From Metallosphaera yellowstonensis MK1 (GTDB lineage Archaea > Thermoproteota > Thermoprotei_A > Sulfolobales > Sulfolobaceae), in assembly GCF_000243315.1 (NCBI RefSeq), contig NZ_JH597761.1, positions 227,237 through 291,236 on the forward strand: a stretch of 64,000 bases of DNA, written 5' to 3'. The notes beneath the pieces are model-generated. The model saw only the letters and a list, made by a program, of their open reading frames with translations. It was not told where the DNA came from and ran no database searches. Shown in pieces: positions 40,084 through 59,050 of the stretch. Positions within the stretch are counted from its first letter, which is position 1, and each line of letters begins with the position of its first letter. A program made the translations under genes and the position numbers.

Positions 40084-40100
40084 TCTGTTAAATACAAATA

Positions 40101-40211
40101 CAGCAGTTATGGAATTTCTCGTTAGGTATAGCCTTGAAGTCGAGGCAAAATCTGATGACTGCTGTTCCTTAGTTAGAGCCTTATAACCAAGGTAAAATCT
40201 GAGAACTGCTG
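40101..40211 (+). repeat. 64-bp MITE plus the right half of a second
   Basis: A complete copy at 40101-40164 (CAGCAGTTATGGAATTTCTC to ATGACTGCTG) is followed without a gap by a 47-bp right half of another copy, ending GAGAACTGCTG at 40211. Confidence 0.9.
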
Positions 40212-40277
40212 TAAAAATTCTTTGTAATAAAATTTTATATCATATAAAAATCCTTAAAAATTATTGTGAAAATTGTT

Positions 40278-43074: not shown

Positions 43075-43380
43075 AGGGTTTAAGGTCACTAGGACCAGGA
43101 GCGAGGGGCCTTCAGGACGACCAACCTCCTGTTCCTCGACCGGATAGGTGGTGAGCTCCTCTCGAGCCCAAGGGACTTGAGCGCTTTTATCACGACCTCC
43201 ACGTCCCACCGATGCTCCGAGATGCGAAGAGGACATTCCTCCATGAACAGCAATTATGGGACTTTCCCTTAAATATCGCTCTGTAATCAAGGCAAAATCT
43301 AATACCTGCTGCATGAAACCGGCGAGTTATGGCTGACCTTAAGATCCCCGGTGGAGGTGACCGATAGCTTAATGCGTCCA
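43075..43380 (-). mobile_element. transposase C-terminal remnant split by a MITE
   Basis: On the minus strand 43245-43090 reads SEHRWDVEVVIKALKSLGLE, like the Glu-containing C-terminal end of IS4-type transposases. Upstream of it a 64-bp MITE (43248-43311) is flanked by CATGAA on both sides. Beyond that is an older piece in another frame. No full gene remains. Confidence 0.45.
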
Positions 43381-43476: not shown

Positions 43477-44871
43477 ATGAAATCCTGTCTAATTTACGTC
43501 GCCGGGGACGTGACCAATTACGAGCTTGTGGACTACATCATAAACGACGGAAACGCGGGGATAAAGGTAAAGACTTTCTTCGCAGCCCACGCCTTACACA
43601 AGGTCTTCAGTCCGGAGGAGGTAGTCGCCTTACTCCCAGACAGCCTGATACACGACGATAACGAGGACTGGGAGAGCGTAAAGGAGGCTTACAAGGGGCT
43701 CGTGACCTCTCGTGCTAACGAGCTAGGAATGGAGAACCAGACCGGGGAGGCACTCGAGACCTTCCTGGATAAGTTGGACGTGAGACTTATACCCAACGTG
43801 GGAGTGGGGAGTGCTAAAAGGAGTAGTGGAGGGAAGATTGTCCTCGACTCTAATGGCACACCTCAGACTGTACAGTATCAGAGGAGTAGGACCCCGAGCT
43901 TCATCTTCAACGTCATCTACTCCGTGTTTGAGGACCTCTCCTGTGAAAAATACCTCGTCGACCTAACCCATGGGACTAACGTCCTGATTTCTGCTGTCTT
44001 GACTGCCGGTTCACTGTTTGACTCCAGGTTCTTCTCGGCCCCCATCATGGGGAGACCAGGAGTCCAGGCCGAGGTCGAAGTCGTGGAGCTGACGGGATTA
44101 GTTGAGGCAATGAAGAATTCCATGATGATCTCTGAATCCATAAAGAATCTGGACGAGAGGTACTTCAGGGACTTCAGCGGTCAGCTGGGACGTTTGAACC
44201 CGAAAGAGTTCAAGGACAAGGGTTTGATCGAACGGGTGAAGAAGACAGATACCAATAAGGTCAAGGACCTTCTCTGGAACATAAGGAACGGTTTCTCGGT
44301 AAAGGCAGTGAAGAGTATGGCCGATGTTAGGAATCACATGGATCAGATAAGGGGCGACGTGAACACCCTGAGGGCATATTTCCTGAATTGGTATGACCAT
44401 CAGGATCTGGACAAAGAGGAGTTAGTCCTTTCCAACTTGAGCTCGACGTTGAAGGTCGGGGACCTGATTCAGCCGGGGGACGACTTGACCTCAATGAAGC
44501 GTTTACTGAACCTCTACGTGAGGGCCTCCCTTTACGATAAGGCCCTTTCCCTAGCAAGGGAACTCCCAATAGCGTTCTGCCTGAAGGAGCAGGGAGGGGG
44601 AAAATTCGCCGATGATGATAATAATTACGATCAATGCAACAATGAGGTGGTCGAAGGTTACCAAAAAGAGAATAGTAACGTCCTGAGGCTTAGGAACGTT
44701 CTGATGCATGGAGGTCTGTCGAAAGATCTGAAAGTTCAGGTGGGACCAGACGGGACCGTTAAGGCTGACGAAGTTGAAAAGAAACAAATTGAGGACGTGG
44801 TCAATAAAGTGCCGGAATACGTGGACGAGATTATCGGCTTGTTGAGCCAGAAGAGGACTAAAGACCCGTGA
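43477..44871 (+). CDS. csx1: Csx1, CARF-HEPN CRISPR-associated ribonuclease
   Basis: 464 residues, close to the size and block order of Sulfolobus Sso1389. The CARF domain opens with CLIYVAGDVTNYELVDY and carries YLVDLTHGTNVLISAVLTAG (residues 159-178), which binds cyclic oligoadenylate. The HEPN domain has LRLRNVLMHGG, with R406-x4-H411 as the RNase site. When a type III effector makes cyclic tetra-adenylate, Csx1 degrades RNA unspecifically. The ATG follows a TATA-like TTAAATTC by about 25 bases. No effector genes lie beside it. A ring nuclease at 7407 and a shorter one at 49012 would be its off-switches. Confidence 0.95.
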   Translation: MKSCLIYVAGDVTNYELVDYIINDGNAGIKVKTFFAAHALHKVFSPEEVVALLPDSLIHDDNEDWESVKEAYKGLVTSRANELGMENQTGEALETFLDKLDVRLIPNVGVGSAKRSSGGKIVLDSNGTPQTVQYQRSRTPSFIFNVIYSVFEDLSCEKYLVDLTHGTNVLISAVLTAGSLFDSRFFSAPIMGRPGVQAEVEVVELTGLVEAMKNSMMISESIKNLDERYFRDFSGQLGRLNPKEFKDKGLIERVKKTDTNKVKDLLWNIRNGFSVKAVKSMADVRNHMDQIRGDVNTLRAYFLNWYDHQDLDKEELVLSNLSSTLKVGDLIQPGDDLTSMKRLLNLYVRASLYDKALSLARELPIAFCLKEQGGGKFADDDNNYDQCNNEVVEGYQKENSNVLRLRNVLMHGGLSKDLKVQVGPDGTVKADEVEKKQIEDVVNKVPEYVDEIIGLLSQKRTKDP

Positions 44872-44896: not shown

Positions 44897-45148
44897 GTTT
44901 GTCCCTACGCTCTCATTTCACTCACTTTGTGTTCAATCATGATGGAGTGCGGGGACTTAGCCCTCAGCCACTTACCAGCCTTAACGGTAGGTGGGTCATG
45001 GGACTCCTCGGAGCCGATGGGCACGAGGCTCAGATCCCAGATCACTCTTACCCTTTTGAGCAGAGCTCACATCGAGTGAGAGTTCATCTTTTATCAACGA
45101 AAATAAACAAATATAAAAAAATTTGTTAACGTGAAAAAGGATTCAGTC
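44897..45148 (-). repeat. R1 hairpin-rich repeat, copy a
   Basis: 252 bp, one of three copies (also 46430-46657 and 48010-48267), starting GTTTGTCCCTA and ending near AAAAAGGATTCAGTC. On the minus strand a TATA box (TTTTTATATTTG) lies about 30 bases before ACTCTCACTCGATGTGAG. Paired stretches are kept although the bases change between copies: ACTCTTA/TGAGAGT here against CTCCCAC/GTGGGAG in copy b. It starts 25 bases after the csx1 stop, on the opposite strand. Confidence 0.65.
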
Positions 45149-45293
45149 AACTAGGTCTTGCATTGGTTTTCCGCTGGCTTTCGGACGTGGAGGAGGCCCA
45201 CCACTCTGGGGGATAGCCCTGAGCTCATCAAGAAGAGGTCTGCTATTAAGTTAGGGGAGGAGCTCCAGGTTTATGGGGACCTCGGAAGGTTCT

Positions 45294-45571
45294 ACCCGTG
45301 GCGTAACTTATCCTTACTCTTAGTCACTTCCAATCACACCACGGGCATCCCTCTCAATGGCTCATAAAGGTCACCCTCAAGTCATTGGGACTAGTAGAGG
45401 GAAGCTTTAACACCCTCCTATCCAATCACTCCTACCCTCGTGAGCAGTGTCCGTCGCCAGTTGGGAGATCATCAGTAAAAACTATTTGTAATACTACACG
45501 AACATTACTTAATCAAAACGATGTTTAGAAGTAATTAAAATAACGAGTGGTTACGTAAAAGAGTTACAGTC
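45294..45571 (-). repeat. R2 repeat, copy a
   Basis: 278 bp matching 58764-59050 and, in reverse, 53294-53550. The ends are CCCGTGGCGTAAC and TTACGTAAAAGAGTTACAG. The small frame that is open in the copy at 58762 is broken here by frameshifts, but its tail can still be followed (RVTF..., LRHG). A stem CTCCCA...AGGAG is kept. Confidence 0.6.
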
Positions 45572-45583
45572 TACCGTTTGCCT

Positions 45584-46129
45584 TCACCTGGGCCTGTAGG
45601 CGCTCCCTCCCACGTAACTCCTGGTGTTCAAGGTTAAGAGGAGACCCACGAGGCCCACCATCTTGACCACGTCACCCACGATGGCTACAGGTCCTAAGTT
45701 CACGAGGTAGAGGGGCAGGCCTGCAGTGAACACTACAGCCCCCCAGAAGAAGAGGGAGGAGTAGGTGGGCCTGACCCTCTTGGCTGTCAGGTATATGGGT
45801 ATCCCAGCCACGGGCTCGAGGGTGTAGCCCAGTAGGATCAGCTCCACCCCCAGGAACTTCCCTAGGGTGAGGTACACGAGCCCTATCCCGGCGATCATCA
45901 CGGCCAGTGCTCCGAAGAAGTCCAACATCCATTGCCTCTCCAACTTGACCATGTGGTAGGTGAGAACTGAAGGGATGGCCATGGCCCAGATGACCCACAG
46001 TGTCAGGACTGAAGGGAGGGCAAAGATGAAGTTCAACCCCTCAAACTCCAGCAGGGTTAACTCGAGGAGAATGACTAGGGACGCGATCAGGCTTATCAGG
46101 TTTCCCCTGAACAAGTGTTTGACTTCCAT
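45584..46129 (-). CDS. hypothetical six-helix membrane protein
   Basis: 181 residues, about six hydrophobic helices (for example LISLIASLVILLELTLLEF and VVKMVGLVGLLLTL), not recognised. No signal peptide cleavage site and no conserved charged motif in the membrane. It is isolated between repeats R2a and R1c. A short AT-rich promoter-like stretch lies upstream at 46140-46180. Confidence 0.6.
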   Translation of the reverse strand: MEVKHLFRGNLISLIASLVILLELTLLEFEGLNFIFALPSVLTLWVIWAMAIPSVLTYHMVKLERQWMLDFFGALAVMIAGIGLVYLTLGKFLGVELILLGYTLEPVAGIPIYLTAKRVRPTYSSLFFWGAVVFTAGLPLYLVNLGPVAIVGDVVKMVGLVGLLLTLNTRSYVGGSAYRPR

Positions 46130-46429
46130 GTGATAATTAGGGCGGGGAGATCAAAAAACATTGGATTAAATTAATTTTAACAGGGCATCTCATGTCGTCC
46201 CGTTACAACATCGCCTCCCTCAGGCTAAGGGAGATACCTTGATGCAGTGATTGGATCTAACCTTGGTTGCAAGGTGATGTCCAACGGAAAGTCCCATAAC
46301 TGCTTTCCCTTGATTAGTATCAGGCACCTCTCAGGGAATAGGTGAGTCACAGTCTAGTGTCCTACTATCGTTGAGTCCCGACGGGGACGAAACTAAGAGC
46401 GAGTTGGGCTGATTTCTTTATGTTAGTGA

Positions 46430-46657
46430 AGGTATTTTTTATCCTTTTATTATGTCTTTACTGATAAAAGATGTCCTCCCACTAGATGCGGGCTCTCCCC
46501 AAAGGGGTGGGAGCGATCTGGGATCTGAGCCTAGTGCCGTTTGATTCCAAGGAGTCCCGTGACCCCCTACCTTGAGGTCGGGTAGGTGTTTAGGGCCTAA
46601 GTCCCTGTATTCCATCATGAATAAAGATAAAATTATTGAAAAGTGTTAGGGACAAAC
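46430..46657 (+). repeat. R1 hairpin-rich repeat, copy c
   Basis: Inverted relative to the other two copies. It keeps the stems CTCCCAC...GTGGGAG and CTACC...GGTAG and the end GGGACAAAC. Any reading frame is interrupted by stops. It points toward the 3' end of the permease gene. Confidence 0.6.
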
Positions 46658-46717
46658 GGAACAACTCTCGAACTAGTTCAAGGGAACTATCTAAAAAAGG
46701 GTTTTTAACCTAACCGC

Positions 46718-47992
46718 TCAAGTCCTGATCTCCTTCCTCAGGGCCCCGTAAATCGCTCCGATCACCATCCACACCACGAAGGTCGCGACTCCTATGAGCA
46801 CGTAGGAGTTGACCGAGGTGGTGACTATGTTGGCGAATATCACGAACCCCACTATGGCGTTTATGATCGCCGTTAGCAGTATGTTCCAGAGGTTCAACGC
46901 CTTGTGCTCCCTCAGGATGAAGAGCAGGCTTATGTTTGCGGTGAATATGGCAACCAGGAAACCGAATGTCGTGGTTATCCCAACAGCCAGGAACACGTTG
47001 GCCGGGCTCAGGAACACTGAGAAGACGACGGTGTATATCAGGGAGAACAGTAGGGCGAAAACGACTGCCACGTGGGGGGTCTTGTTGTTGTCGTGTACCC
47101 CCTCCAGCCTCCTGTCCAACACTCCGTCCCTGGCCATGGCGAAGACTACCCTGGACACTGTGTTGAAGAAGGTCACGGAGTCTGTAAGTCCGCTGTTGAT
47201 CAGGAGTACCGTGAGTATCACGCCGAGGATGAACCCCCCATATCGGACTCCCAGTACTATACCTGGAACCAGGTTGGTGAAGAACGAGGACATATCGTTG
47301 ACCCCCCAACCCACGGTGAAGGCCTCGCTCGCCAGGACGTAAGTTATCCCCACCAGGAGGGCACTGGTGAATACTCCCTTGGTTATGGTGTTCTTCGGGT
47401 CCACAGCCTCCTCTCCCAGGACCGAAGCGGTCTCGTAGCCGGCGAACGCTAAAAAGACGAAGGCCATCCCCACTCCCACGTTGAAGGCTGAGGGTGGAGG
47501 AGCGTAGGCCAGCGTGAAGGTTTTAGGGTCTGGAGGGACTCTGCTTAAGATCAGGAGCGAAGTCCCCACGATGAACAGTATCTCCACGATACTCATGGTC
47601 AGGATGAACTTCAGGGAAGGCCTTATCCCCAGGTAGGATAGGACTCCACCGAACAGGGCCACAGCGACCACGATGGGAGCCCAGATCCAGGAGGGTGTGT
47701 TGACTCCGAGGACCTGCAGTGCCCCAGGTAAGAAGACTCCCACAGAGAGGTATATGAACACCAGTGCCGTGAGAGCGTAGAGCACGTAGGCCCAACCTAT
47801 GAGGAAGCCCACCTTCTTCCCTAACCCTTCGGAGATGAAGGCGTAAATACCGCCGGCGCTCTGAACGTATCTGCTCGTGATAGAGAGCCTGGTAGCGTCC
47901 AGAAGGACGGCAAAGGTAGCTAGCGCTACGGCGAGAGGGAAAGAGCCGTATGCGTAGGCTGCAGCACCTGTCAGGGTCACTAGGCTGGCCAT
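46718..47992 (-). CDS. APC-family amino-acid permease, probably N-terminally truncated
   Basis: 424 residues, about eleven membrane helices. AGGIYAFISEGLGKKVGFLI, VFLAFAGYETASVLGEEAVD and PKNTITKG are typical of the amino acid-polyamine-organocation superfamily. Family members usually begin with a helix that ends in a G-x-S-x-APA segment. Here the sequence before the ATG still reads GAAPA and then runs into the end of repeat R1b at 48010. So about the first 20-25 residues seem to have been replaced. Translation from the ATG at 47992 would give a protein lacking most of helix 1. Function is therefore uncertain; substrate unknown. Confidence 0.8.
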   Translation of the reverse strand: MASLVTLTGAAAYAYGSFPLAVALATFAVLLDATRLSITSRYVQSAGGIYAFISEGLGKKVGFLIGWAYVLYALTALVFIYLSVGVFLPGALQVLGVNTPSWIWAPIVVAVALFGGVLSYLGIRPSLKFILTMSIVEILFIVGTSLLILSRVPPDPKTFTLAYAPPPSAFNVGVGMAFVFLAFAGYETASVLGEEAVDPKNTITKGVFTSALLVGITYVLASEAFTVGWGVNDMSSFFTNLVPGIVLGVRYGGFILGVILTVLLINSGLTDSVTFFNTVSRVVFAMARDGVLDRRLEGVHDNNKTPHVAVVFALLFSLIYTVVFSVFLSPANVFLAVGITTTFGFLVAIFTANISLLFILREHKALNLWNILLTAIINAIVGFVIFANIVTTSVNSYVLIGVATFVVWMVIGAIYGALRKEIRT

Positions 47993-48009
47993 AGCAGGCG
48001 CAGCTCCCC

Positions 48010-48267
48010 GTTTGTCCCTACACTTTCATTTCAATCATTTTATGTTCATTCATGATAGAGTGTAGGGACTTAGCCCTCAACCACCCACTTACTGTAGGTG
48101 GGTCATGGGACTCCTTCGAGCCCAACGGCACGGGGCTCACATCTCTGCAATCACTCCCACCCTTTTGGGCATAGCCCACATCGGTGTGGGAGGTCATTAT
48201 TTATCAACGAAAATTCGTTATAAACAGATATAAAAAGATTTCTATTAACGTGAAAAGGATTCAGTCC
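48010..48267 (-). repeat. R1 hairpin-rich repeat, copy b, at the permease 5' end
   Basis: 258 bp. On the minus strand a TATA box (TTTTATATCT near 48230, with TTTATAACG closer) is followed by CTCCCACACCGATGTGGG, GGGTGGGAG, GAGCCC...GGGCTC, and an 11-bp inverted repeat GTCCCTACACT...AGTGTAGGGAC close to the other end. A 59-codon frame (48197-48018, starting MTSHTDVGYAQKGGS) is open in this copy only. The repeat reads directly into the truncated permease gene, so it could act as its promoter and leader. Confidence 0.65.
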
Positions 48268-49011
48268 ACACCCTGAGCTACGACTTCCCTATAACTAACG
48301 GAGTTACGAGCCAACTCCTTCTTTTCTGTCATGTCAGGTCTTACTTTTAATGATTGGAGATCTTTTAAGCTTTTACCTGTTTGATTAAAAACTAATTAGA
48401 AGGCGAAGGAATCTTTATTTAAAGAAACTGCTAGTTTCTCAGAGGTGTAGAGACGTGGTCAGGGTAATTTCACGAGGAGTGTGATCTGTGACTCGTCATC
48501 GAGCAGGTCGTGGAGTATTACCGTGTTCTGGGACCTCGAGTGTCAAGCTCCCGCTCGCGTCGGTAATACTAACGTGTTCCAAGGTCCGATGGGGGACGTT
48601 AGGTCTCGCCTTGATGGTGAGGTGACACTTGAGGGAAACTCCCATAACTGCTCGTCTGATACTCACTTCTTGAATCAGCGTGGATGATCAACGTAGTCAA
48701 GTAGGTGGGAGGATTTGGAACTTTAGGATGAAGTAGGATCTGTACTGGTTGTAGAATTTCCTCGGGTGTTGACCACGTTGAGCCCACTCAAAGTCGAAAT
48801 TACAGATCAGTTTAAAACAAGATTCGTGTGAATGCTAAAAAGTATTTAAGAAGCCCACGAGGGCGTTGAAACTCCTCAGAGGGGAATCCGTGACTATCGA
48901 GGTTGAGCACCTCACGAAAGTCCTCAGAGGATCGTTCAGACCTTGGACGTTATTCCAGTTCTGGGGTTAACCCACGTTAGCGCTCACAACCGCACTCGTC
49001 TCGTTCCGGGC
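48268..49011. other. gene-poor spacer with a half MITE
   Basis: About 740 bp. A degraded MITE right half lies near 48600-48652 (ending CCCATAACTGCT). The inverted repeat GAAACTGCTAGTTTC is at 48425-48439. Nothing else shows a credible coding frame. CRISPR repeats were looked for and not found. Confidence 0.5.
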
Positions 49012-49563
49012 TCAAAAGAAAAGTATGGTTCTGGAGTTCTTAGAGATCAGGTCACATACCTCTTTCAACTGGTCGCACTTACCTTGGCCAGCCTCCTCCA
49101 CATCCCTCTCCTTGGCTTTCAGGGGCTTGAGGAGATTGTTCACCCTGGTGTACTCATCTGGAGATACTACGGTGGTGACGATGTGGGCCCTCTTGTGGAG
49201 GCCCTCCAGAGCTGCGGCCACACTCATGGCCTTCCTCCCCCCTGTGAAATCTACGTAGTCCCCCACGTTTATCCTCGAGCCTACCTCCTTCCTAAACTTC
49301 TTGAAGTCGTCTGCGCTGTTTATGTCATCCATGGGCAGGGGGATGTCTGCTATGATAATTTCCTTTGATCCGCAACACGCGAATATTGCTTTGACCAGCT
49401 TCCACGCAAAGGTTACGGCCTCGTTGTTTGTCCTGATCACGTACACTTCGTCCACCTTTACAGGCGTCGGGTTTTCGGCCTCGTATTTCCCTTGACTTAG
49501 GTTGATGAAGGTCTCGTAGATTCCACCGGGGGTAGTGCCCAGGACAGAGACGAGTTTTACCAT
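49012..49563 (-). CDS. CARF-domain protein, Sso1393-like ring nuclease, short form
   Basis: 183 residues. MVKLVSVLGTTPGGIYETFI at the N-terminus and GDYVDFTGGRKAMSVAAALE (residues 101-120) match the CARF core of the Sso1393 group of Crn1 ring nucleases. These cleave cyclic tetra-adenylate. Arg110 and Lys111 lie in the ligand loop. As I recall the family, members carry an additional C-terminal domain. Here the frame ends with SRTILFF at a junction with unrelated DNA, so the protein may be truncated just after the CARF domain. It stands near cas6 on the same strand, separated by a MITE. Confidence 0.78.
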   Translation of the reverse strand: MVKLVSVLGTTPGGIYETFINLSQGKYEAENPTPVKVDEVYVIRTNNEAVTFAWKLVKAIFACCGSKEIIIADIPLPMDDINSADDFKKFRKEVGSRINVGDYVDFTGGRKAMSVAAALEGLHKRAHIVTTVVSPDEYTRVNNLLKPLKAKERDVEEAGQGKCDQLKEVCDLISKNSRTILFF

Positions 49564-49757
49564 AATAGGGAACGGGAGACAAAGGATATAAGCGTAGGGG
49601 TCTCCTGAGTACTAGGGAAGGGGCGTACATGGGAGTCAACCCTGACCGGGACCTCCCCGGTTCTGATGAGGCTAGGCCTGAGCTCACCGCATGTGAGGGA
49701 GCTCGAGTGACCGGGGGGAGTTTGGGCTCTCCAAGGGGCGTTCAGAAGACTCAACCC

Positions 49758-49815
49758 CAGTTATTAGAATTCGCCTAGATTACAGGGCGATACTCAAGGG
49801 AAAATCCCGTAACTG
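49758..49815 (-). repeat. degraded MITE between cas6 and the ring-nuclease gene
   Basis: CAGTTATTAGAATTCGCCTA to CCCGTAACTG, 58 bp, with both ends shortened. Confidence 0.7.
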
Positions 49816-49930
49816 ATACTTAACTGACTTCGAGATTCAGGGGCCTTGGTTGCTGATCGAGGTTGAACAGTGAACTGAGTGTAAATCCTGCTCAATGCCC
49901 CAACACTTCTCCCACCTCAGCAATCTCCGG

Positions 49931-50746
49931 TCATGTCCGATCCGTCTCTTCTCCCTCCCCTCTGGCCCTCCATGGAAAGCACTCAATCTCGCCGAAGCCT
50001 ATGGACCTGGACTTCCCGACCCCCATGAAGTTGCCATACCCCAGGAGAGTCCTAACCTTCTCCCTGAACCCCGAGCTCCTCCTGGCGTCCAGGGAGAACT
50101 TGGTCCACCCCACGAATCCCCTGACCGTCCCTTGCTCATAGGGGACAGTTATTGGGGTGAGGTTGTAACCGACCTCCCTAAAGTAGTACAGGGCCCTGAG
50201 ACCCCCGACCCCGTTAACCTTCACGTGGGAGAAGGCGTTCCAGTGCACTGCCAGAGAAGTGAGGAGGAGCGGGGAGTAGGGGAAGAGTACATATCTGTTC
50301 CTCCTCCTCTTGAAGGACGGCCTTGGGGGTTGCAGGAGGGTAGGAGTGAGGAACCTGACCACGTACGTTCGGGAGTCCTCGAGGGCTAAGGACTCTACCT
50401 GCACATACTTCACTTGGTTCAGCTCCACCTTTCCCTCGGTGTGGTACACCCTCACAGTACCTGAAGGGTTCTTCAAGACCTCCTCTGCCAGGACCTGCTC
50501 CAGTGAGTTCAGGTAAAAGGTATACTCCTTCCCAGGGTAGAGGCGTAGAACGTTCTTCCCTGTGGAGAACAGAGGCCTGCGGTCCCTGAGGGCCGTCACC
50601 CTGTGGGGTTTAGGTCCCGGAGAGTCCGTGGACTTGAGATAGTGTGGGTAGAGTTGGGCGAGGATCATCCTCGAGACCTTGGAACTGAAGGGCTGGACTA
50701 TTACCTCGTCCTTCACCCTCAGGGAGAACGCGAGGGAGAAAATCAT
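49931..50746 (-). CDS. cas6: Cas6 CRISPR RNA endonuclease
   Basis: 271 residues of the RAMP superfamily. The C-terminus has the Gly-rich loop LLGYGNFMGVGKSRSIGFGE that defines Cas6, preceded by FVGWTKFSLD. The N-terminal ferredoxin-like half starts MIFSLAFSLRVKDEVIVQPF. It cuts pre-crRNA within the repeats and so serves both type I and type III systems. No array lies within the window. A promoter-like AT stretch is short here, and MITEs fill the upstream DNA. Confidence 0.9.
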   Translation of the reverse strand: MIFSLAFSLRVKDEVIVQPFSSKVSRMILAQLYPHYLKSTDSPGPKPHRVTALRDRRPLFSTGKNVLRLYPGKEYTFYLNSLEQVLAEEVLKNPSGTVRVYHTEGKVELNQVKYVQVESLALEDSRTYVVRFLTPTLLQPPRPSFKRRRNRYVLFPYSPLLLTSLAVHWNAFSHVKVNGVGGLRALYYFREVGYNLTPITVPYEQGTVRGFVGWTKFSLDARRSSGFREKVRTLLGYGNFMGVGKSRSIGFGEIECFPWRARGEGEETDRT

Positions 50747-50834: not shown

Positions 50835-50961
50835 GAGTAGTAGTTATTTGACTTTCCCTTAACTGACGTCCTGTTATCGAGGGAAACCTAATAACTACAG
50901 CAGTTACCAGATTTTGCCTCGACTTCAAGGCTACACCTAACGAGGAATCCCATAACTGCTG
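50835..50961. repeat. two MITEs, one inserted into the end of the other
   Basis: A plus-oriented older copy (50835-50897, AGTAGTTATTTGACTTTCCC and on) is cut near its right end by a reverse copy of exactly 64 bp (50898-50961). The flanks TAACTA at 50892-50897 and 50962-50967 are a 6-bp target duplication. Confidence 0.87.
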
Positions 50962-51152
50962 TAACTACACAAGCACATTGGAAAAAGGTCACGTCCGTGC
51001 AGTTATATGTCAGTTTCGTGGAATTTCGACGCTCTCAGGCGTTAGGCTCATTGGAAAACCTAAGTTCCAAATTATACCTCGATTTGGAAAAAGCTCCCGG
51101 AACTCTCTGATGAAAGTTGAGGGACCCGCGAACCGCGTCCTTAACCGAAAGT

Positions 51153-58636: not shown

Positions 58637-58763
58637 ATGATTTATGTGATAGATGAGACTAAGGTAGGGCTAACTAAGGACGAAAACTATCACTTATAGT
58701 CAATAAGAACTAAGGGAATATCTTATTACGTTGACGGGGCTTGAAACAAAGTTAATAGTGTTT
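58637..58763 (+). pseudogene. transposase-like remnant
   Basis: The frame MIYVIDETKVGLTKDENYHL stops and continues as SIRTKGISYYVDGA with a second stop. VIDET followed by YHL-x-S looks like the first Asp region of a DDE transposase. Upstream DNA from 58500 has no clear frame. Low confidence. Confidence 0.35.
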
Positions 58764-58953
58764 ACCCGTGGCGTAACTTTTCCTTTTTAATTACTTCTAA
58801 TTCCGCCACGGGCACCCCTCTTAAGGGATCATACAGGGTCACCCTTAACTCATTGGGGCTAGTCGAGGGAAACTTCAATACCCTCCCATCCACACCTTTA
58901 TAACTCCCCAAACCTCGTGAGCAGTGCCCGTCATCAGTTAGGGGGATCATCAA
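58762..58953 (-). CDS. small protein encoded in repeat R2b
   Basis: 63 codons, MMIPLTDDGHCSRGLGSYKG to LRVTLYDPLRGVPVAELEVI and KKEKLRHG. A TATA box (GTTTATATAG, about 58983) lies 30 bases upstream, so a leaderless transcript would start at this ATG. The other two R2 copies keep parts of this frame with frameshifts. The conserved tail hints at real coding, but the hairpins in the same DNA could equally mean an RNA. No family recognised. Confidence 0.4.
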   Translation of the reverse strand: MMIPLTDDGHCSRGLGSYKGVDGRVLKFPSTSPNELRVTLYDPLRGVPVAELEVIKKEKLRHG

Positions 58954-59050
58954 TAAAAACTACTTCGGTGATACTATATAAACACAACTTGTCAAAACGA
59001 TATTTAGATGATTAAAAATAACCAGTAGTTACGTAGAAGCGTTACAGTCT
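58764..59050 (-). repeat. R2 repeat, copy b (frame intact)
   Basis: 287 bp from CCCGTGGCGTAAC to TTACGTAGAAGCGTTACAG. It shows a stem CCCCTAAC/GTTTGGGG where copies a and c show CTCCCA/AGGAG and CTCCCA/TGGGAG, again pairing preserved with changed bases. A second inverted repeat CCCGTGGCG...CGCCACGGG lies at the other end. Confidence 0.6.

Follow-up and report, generated by a model that had tools for sequence, protein, structure and literature searches.

The scaffold of the guide RNA used by the transposon-encoded protein TnpB (omega-RNA, or right-end RNA, reRNA) overlaps the 3' end of tnpB and stops at the right end of the element, beside a guide derived from the flanking DNA (Karvelis et al. 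2021, PMC8612924; Nety et al. 2023, PMC10278001). For TnpB acting together with its own transposon, cutting of the unoccupied allele, with the occupied one then favoured by repair or selection, has been shown in other families (PMC8612924, PMC11870625). In bacteria, the guide RNAs of insertion sequence (IS) IS607 TnpBs that derive from RAGATH-18 are located downstream of tnpB, with AGGAG or GAGGG as transposon-adjacent motif (TAM) (PMC11061315). Furthermore, Sulfolobus carries the miniature transposons (MITEs) SMN1, SM3A and SM1-SM4, which are non-autonomous, are mobilised in trans and have ISC1733 and ISC1058 as parents (PMC3718332, PMC10969869). Here we describe R1, a repeat with three copies in 64,000 nucleotides (nt) of Metallosphaera yellowstonensis MK1 (contig NZ_JH597761.1, positions 227,237 to 291,236; hereafter the window). 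Each R1 copy is in our view most likely a free-standing omega-RNA gene, with TnpA acting in trans to mobilise it and TnpB to read it.

The origin of R1 can be explained by comparison with several relatives, in which the R1 query matches in two parts, nt 1-136 and nt 211-258, that lie about 1.8 kilobases apart. The two parts belong to full-length two-gene transposons. Their TnpA is a serine recombinase of 225 amino acids (IS607 transposase NF033518, 249 bits) with the catalytic domain of ISC1926 TnpA as the best solved structure (6dgc, E 6e-84), and their TnpB comprises 412 amino acids and matches NF040570 and PF07282. The parent transposons begin with GG followed by GCTGAATCC and end with GGGACAAAC followed by GG, and left ends read GGGCTGAATCC. 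Among 92 right junctions, GG was found in 98-99%, with no other strong flank signal and a weak W at -1. R1 shows GG at both junctions and comprises neither terminal inverted repeats nor a target-site duplication; GG termini and a GG target without target-site duplication are the IS607 pattern of ISC1926 and its relatives (Chen et al. 2018, PMC6188088). Since TnpA is a serine recombinase and the GG ends resemble those of ISC1926, R1 is, judged by its sequence, a non-autonomous IS607-family element from an ISC1926-like transposon with tnpA and tnpB, and not an IS605 derivative. An earlier note on the window had considered a non-autonomous IS605 derivative that keeps its guide-RNA part, and thereby named the right kind of element and the wrong family. 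An IS200/IS605 parentage was ruled out, as TnpA is not a Y1 tyrosine transposase and the left flank carries no motif beyond a weak W at -1; the TAM of archaeal IS605 elements is TTTAA (PMC10640517). A derivative that keeps its guide RNA is the identity of R1 and not a rival to a functional RNA. Intact copies of tnpA are present in the genome.

R1 is composed of a left end of about 58 nt with a TATA box, a 39-nt hairpin with two stems (P1/P2) and a right end that corresponds to the final 136 nt of the parent. The parental counterpart of P1/P2 is located within tnpB (CCAACCCGATGGGGGCAATGCCCCAAGGGTTGG and variants thereof), in the loop of the TnpB C-terminal domain, with about 80 nt separating it from the conserved 3' block. 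The last RuvC motif (HRDVVALYNL) is encoded by the stretch from P1/P2 to the 136-nt block. This stretch, tnpA and most of tnpB are lost from the MITE, in which the distance from P1/P2 to the right end is about 80 nt shorter than in the parental RNA. The right end comprises the end of tnpB together with the predicted 3' scaffold of the omega-RNA, and in line with an omega-RNA this scaffold overlaps the 3' end of tnpB and abuts the right-end flank. The parts kept are those that a TnpB guide RNA would need, namely the scaffold up to the right end and then the flank as guide. The TATA box proposed by the earlier note was recovered as a TATA-like box. Of 53 copies checked, 48 show both this box and the first stem, and in 45 of these the box precedes the stem by 33-36 nt. 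Based on this distance and the usual archaeal spacing, we infer a transcription start about 10 nt before P1. Altogether, our confidence in this anatomy and origin of R1 is high.

R1 is a real, structured RNA element, and selection at the RNA level is evident from its pairing. The pairing tests were done with a six-helix model on the MITE alignment, with the partners slid by 1-3 columns as a control. While 96.0% of the cells pair in the alignment, only 29-49% do so with slid partners. Pairs changed on both sides amounted to 11 compared to 3.3 in shuffled alignments, and none of 500 shuffles reached 11. As shuffles ignore relatedness, a tree-based null was added, in which substitutions were simulated on the tree with the column rates kept (200 simulations). 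Compared to this null, the MITEs (n=62) showed 14 concerted double substitutions that keep pairing, whereas the 200 simulations gave 2.35 on average and never more than 7 (P about 0.005), and 56% of the substitution events in their paired columns keep pairing, with 41% expected. For the parents alone, 3 concerted double substitutions were determined compared to 0.21, with pairing kept in 74% versus 39%, and for MITEs and parents together the numbers were 29 and 3.66. The helices P1, P2, P3 and P5 showed the strongest signal in the tree-based test, and P4 and P6 alone were not significant. The claim of the earlier note that base changes preserve the pairing of a functional RNA is thus supported within the MITEs by the tree-based null, with which the shuffle control agrees. 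An alternative hairpin, GGGCUC/GAGUCC, which RNAalifold returned for the unweighted alignment, was rejected, since compensatory changes in three copies favour P3 as GAGCCC/GGGCUC.

In several MITE variants of one genome (G022, nine loci), in which P1 and P5 are replaced, stems of unrelated sequence and the same shape are located directly before the conserved block. The replacement stems are CCUGCAGGG/CCCUGCAGG with GUGGC/GCCAC, UACGGGG/CCCCGUA with GGGGC/GCCCC, and a P5 of CUUGUGGAC/GUCCACAAG. Each of them folds at least 4.5 standard deviations below shuffles. Some of the variants keep a decayed old P1/P2 farther upstream. The replaced stems are a stronger argument for a required shape than the point changes. 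With Rfam at gathering scores, no match was found in the window, including the omega-RNA and RAGATH-18 families, and relaxing the cut-off to E 1 added nothing but a small nucleolar RNA match of chance level, elsewhere in locus L028.

The TnpB of the R1 lineage (family 1) keeps the motifs DLNE, LEDL and RDVVALYNL, which contain the Asp, Glu and Asp of RuvC, in all six full-length copies of the own genome. Pairwise ratios of nonsynonymous to synonymous substitution rates (dN/dS) between full-length copies ranged from 0.14 to 0.30.

Weak matches of the R1 model led to a second MITE family (family 2). It comprises at least 41 copies of about 291 nt in the genome, 40 of which are 93-100% identical, and two are located in the window. 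At its right end, family 2 shares 94-95% identity with the 3' end of a different IS607-type tnpB; the product of this gene (441-442 amino acids) is about 31-32% identical to the family-1 TnpB. P1/P2 is kept as well, with 88-90% identity to a stretch inside the respective tnpB, and about 91 nt are gone between P1/P2 and the right-end block. The first 24 nt resemble the parental left end. Since this layout is the same as that of R1, two IS607 lineages were cut down to the same three modules. Several family-2 MITEs (L327, L328, L330, L331; genomes G042 and G019) are interrupted at the same place, about nt 185-188, by an element with an IS110-like product, as judged by eye.

In contrast to the family-1 protein, the family-2 TnpB carries Lys in place of the RuvC-II Glu in 7 of 8 copies examined, including copies from three other genera, and the usual cysteines are missing. 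Its dN/dS of 0.10-0.22 indicates that it is nevertheless under purifying selection. It could possibly act as a guided binder or repressor. A predicted structure of modest quality (predicted local distance difference test score 64) still has Cas12f and TnpB structures as best matches, and a sequence search of the PDB with either TnpB gave no match. Several copies of this TnpB are open beside tnpA copies with stops. Loci with the family-2 TnpB include L319, L339 and L341 and, in the own genome, positions 1071416, 77474 and 571301 of contig C10.

Concerning the size of the R1 family, 42 matches with E values down to 1e-129 were obtained when the whole genome was searched at the DNA level. The three copies described in the earlier note are real and far beyond chance. 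This DNA search is independent, in contrast to the model scores of the window copies, from which the covariance model R1 was partly built. With this model (45 copies), 117 genome matches were found at E < 0.001, and 75 of them score at least 112 bits. By our count, these 75 comprise about 64 miniature copies and 11 3' ends of full or partial parent transposons. DNA matches to R1 occur in 19 of 40 relatives, and model matches in 21 of 30 other members of the family. Other families of the order still share a recognisable 45-nt core of the right end (five loci, 84-90% identity). At position 46520 of contig C4, a copy combines the left flank found at one R1 copy with the right flank found at another (compare C10:1033104 and C10:890988); it lies next to a run of N and could reflect recombination or an assembly artefact.

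The copy of R1 in the virus SMV1 (Sulfolobus monocaudavirus, HG322870) is annotated as mobile_element MITE-SMN2. R1 (copy 3) and MITE-SMN2 share 91.9% identity over 258 of 258 nt with the same GG at both ends, and by this identity they belong to the same element family. The record describes only a 'miniature non-inverted-repeat element' and gives neither a parent family nor a guide-RNA content, on which the literature searched, which did not cover the SMV1 genome paper, makes no statement either. A further copy is found on the plasmid pMGB1, and SMV1 and pMGB1 both originate from Yellowstone samples. Stand-alone guide RNAs or IS607 MITEs in archaea were not found in the literature searched, with most subscription papers outside our reach, so that an earlier description is possible. 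The element is already known as a MITE by name, and the stand-alone guide-RNA gene of IS607 origin is new as a reinterpretation.

Based on the anatomy, the following course can be proposed. The TATA box would drive a short transcript starting just before P1, whose 3' part would copy the right flank of each insertion as a guide. TnpA encoded elsewhere would move R1 in trans, and TnpB encoded elsewhere would load the R1 RNA and cut the unoccupied site. Repair or selection would then favour the occupied allele, by which the MITE would be kept or spread. The movement by TnpA and the production of the RNA are plausible from the anatomy, and we infer the later steps. We consider it somewhat more probable than not that R1 RNA is produced and loaded onto TnpB in trans. 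Target cutting as the reason for which R1 is kept is a possibility to which we give slightly less than even weight. A more tentative extension is that the genome holds more than 100 stand-alone guide-RNA genes in two MITE families of separate origin, which parasitise the parental TnpA for movement and the parental TnpB for RNA-guided retention, and that the family-2 RNAs may serve to direct binding or repression rather than cleavage.

Several observations weigh against a free-standing guide-RNA gene. The covariation check that had been suggested for genome-wide copies gave the overall excess described above, but in a per-pair R-scape-like G-test no pair was significant among the MITEs, which fits the few changes per column (about four). 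Many of the changes probably predate insertion, having occurred in source copies, and the covariation therefore speaks for active lineages and not for every copy. Since transposition requires some of the right end, its retention alone is no proof about the RNA. From the flanks, no extended TAM is readable beyond WGG. Finally, the genomes G022, G013 and G017 contain MITEs of the R1 family and no full-length close TnpB, so that the RNA cannot now work there with an own TnpB. These copies outlast their partner, and the function is accordingly not needed for short-term persistence. The last point would also be expected for an ordinary MITE, which is multiplied solely through recognition of its ends by TnpA and whose stems are a passive remainder of tnpB or DNA features for TnpA. 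Sulfolobales commonly harbour MITEs derived from other IS families (PMC3718332, PMC10969869), and tnpA alone suffices for IS607 transposition (PMC6188088). Against this explanation speak the concerted pair-keeping changes within the MITEs, which exceed the tree-based null. Moreover, P1/P2 is far from the parental right end and was kept while the intervening coding sequence was deleted, independently in two IS607 lineages, and it was also retained in G022 with different junctions. An ordinary MITE is therefore considered unlikely, although it is the most serious of the alternatives.

A decoy, in which the MITE RNA would bind TnpB in order to titrate or blunt it and thereby protect cells with many insertions, would fit the ratio of about 64 MITEs to six intact TnpB genes of the family-1 lineage, and the shortening by about 80 nt between P1/P2 and the right end could alter the activity. 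The flank junction and hence the position of the guide are exactly preserved, though, and the family-2 MITEs are accompanied by a TnpB that has already lost a catalytic residue in most copies, which leaves less to blunt; we regard a decoy as quite improbable. Still far less credible is a small protein gene. The open frame of 59 codons reported by the earlier note exists (59-60 codons), and 41 of 63 MITE rows as well as 23 of 29 parents have no stop in it before the right end, but it represents the C-terminal tail of TnpB across an in-frame deletion, is lost in window copy 2 and others, and has no Pfam match. The changes per site by codon position show a weak gradient in this leftover frame (3.0, 3.8, 4.5) and are flat in the paired columns of the MITEs (3.31, 3.61, 3.17). 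These rates argue against coding, and residual inheritance from tnpB remains compatible with them. Of the decaying small gene that had been considered before, the inherited frame is thus real, while there is little sign of coding selection. The own promoter and the stable fold would also suit a host regulatory RNA unrelated to TnpB. Such an RNA is equally hard to reconcile with copies that occur, as those of a mobile element, at unrelated sites with freely varying flanks and also on virus and plasmid, and with a fold that is that of the tnpB 3' end and matches no Rfam family; conserved orthologous positions of R1 across species were not seen. Altogether, the stand-alone omega-RNA gene is preferred.

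The features of the window are compiled in Table 1. The strand given for the R1 copies is that of the RNA. Copy 3 begins and ends with GGACTGAATCC...GTAGGGACAAAC, then GG, and showed 240.7 bits with the covariance model (48010-48201). Its P1/P2 folds with -24.3 kcal/mol (z -4.5), and its right end shares 86-98% identity with the 3' ends of tnpB in full-length IS607 copies. Copy 1 (197.5 bits) is an older copy with decayed end dinucleotides, namely TG on the left and AG on the right in place of GG. Copy 2 (46467-46657, 148.8 bits) is the most diverged of the three, and its stem P3 is damaged. The locations given before hold, except that copy 1 reaches 45149 instead of 45148 and copy 2 begins about 24 nt earlier (46406 instead of 46430), the left GG being included. 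Likewise, the outer stems CTCCCAC/GTGGGAG in copies 2 and 3 and ACTCTTA/TGAGAGT in copy 1 were found as described; the pairing strand of copy 1 was not, since its outer stem comprises one C-A mismatch on the RNA strand and pairs fully (with wobble) only on the opposite strand. The shortening of GAGCCC/GGGCTC to GAGCC/GGCTC in copy 1 is correct.

Table 1. Positions of R1, family-2 and neighbouring features in the window
Feature	Position	Strand	Remarks
R1 copy 1	44897..45149	minus	P1/P2 at 45045-45082
R1 copy 2	46406..46657	plus	P1/P2 at 46476-46513; right GG 46658-46659
R1 copy 3	48010..48267	minus	complete MITE, 258 nt including left GG core; right GG core 48008-48009
TATA-like box, left end of R1 copy 3	48228..48236	minus	homologous parental left end, upstream of tnpA in the parent
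P1/P2 two-stem hairpin of R1 copy 3	48154..48192	minus	parent match at MITE nt 79-111
Right end of R1 copy 3, 136 nt	48010..48145	minus	C-terminal tnpB codons and predicted omega-RNA 3' scaffold
Stems in right end of R1 copy 3	P3 48118-48138, P4/P5, P6 48014-48069		flank (would-be guide) directly after
Family-2 MITE, decayed copy	45289..45572	minus	model R1 23.9 bits, E 5e-4; sequence comparison
Family-2 MITE, 291 nt	58760..59050	minus	model R1 37.4 bits, E 2e-7; parent match
Permease gene	46718..47992	minus	first ~22 codons (ATG 48332 to 48268) cut off by R1 copy 3
Repeat starting with ACAGCAGTTAT	40099-40213, 43247-43311, 46244-46313, 48599-48652, 49756-49817, 50896-50963
Open frames	43477-44871, 49012-49563, 49931-50746		CRISPR-associated look, by eye only

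R1 copy 3 interrupts a permease gene, the upstream flank encoding MTEKKELARNSVSYREVVAQG and the downstream flank GAAPAMASLV. In three congeners, the uninterrupted homologues comprise 450-452 amino acids. The copy lies in a run of G, and the joined flanks are two bases short compared to the congeners. The right-end flank, i.e. the would-be guide, reads into the permease gene. The promoter of this MITE points into the remaining permease frame. Another repeat of about 50-67 nt starts with ACAGCAGTTAT, ends in its inverse and is sometimes tandem; it also interrupts R1 copies elsewhere (two loci). Three open frames have, by eye, the look of genes associated with clustered regularly interspaced short palindromic repeats (CRISPR).

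If the proposed course is true, the MITEs hijack the homing nuclease of their parent besides its transposase, which would explain the high copy number and the retention of elements without genes. TnpB would thereby pass from one guide adjacent to its gene to many scattered guides, a possible step towards RNA-guided systems with many guides. The copies on SMV1 and pMGB1 are direct places to test self-drive through a virus or plasmid population. Furthermore, the natural MITEs would mark about 80-90 nt between P1/P2 and the right end as a dispensable part of the IS607 omega-RNA.

Stand-alone omega-RNAs of IscB, encoded away from the nuclease gene, were reportedly described by Altae-Tran and co-workers in 2021; to our knowledge, these have not been described as TnpA-mobilised IS607 MITEs. 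The location of the guide away from the nuclease gene is common to both, whereas IscB belongs to another nuclease family. The RAGATH-18 RNAs are, as R1, tied to IS607 TnpBs, but R1 matches neither RAGATH-18 nor another Rfam family, and its flank motif is only WGG. Compared to SMN1, SM3A and SM1-SM4, R1 has another parent, and a guide-RNA content is not described for those MITEs in the available parts of PMC3718332 and PMC10969869. In contrast to ISC1926 and the IS607 family, which carry tnpA and tnpB, R1 is without both genes. The placement of the scaffold is the same as in the TnpB omega-RNA or reRNA, while the predicted scaffold of R1 occurs dozens of times, each time with a promoter of its own and separate from any tnpB.

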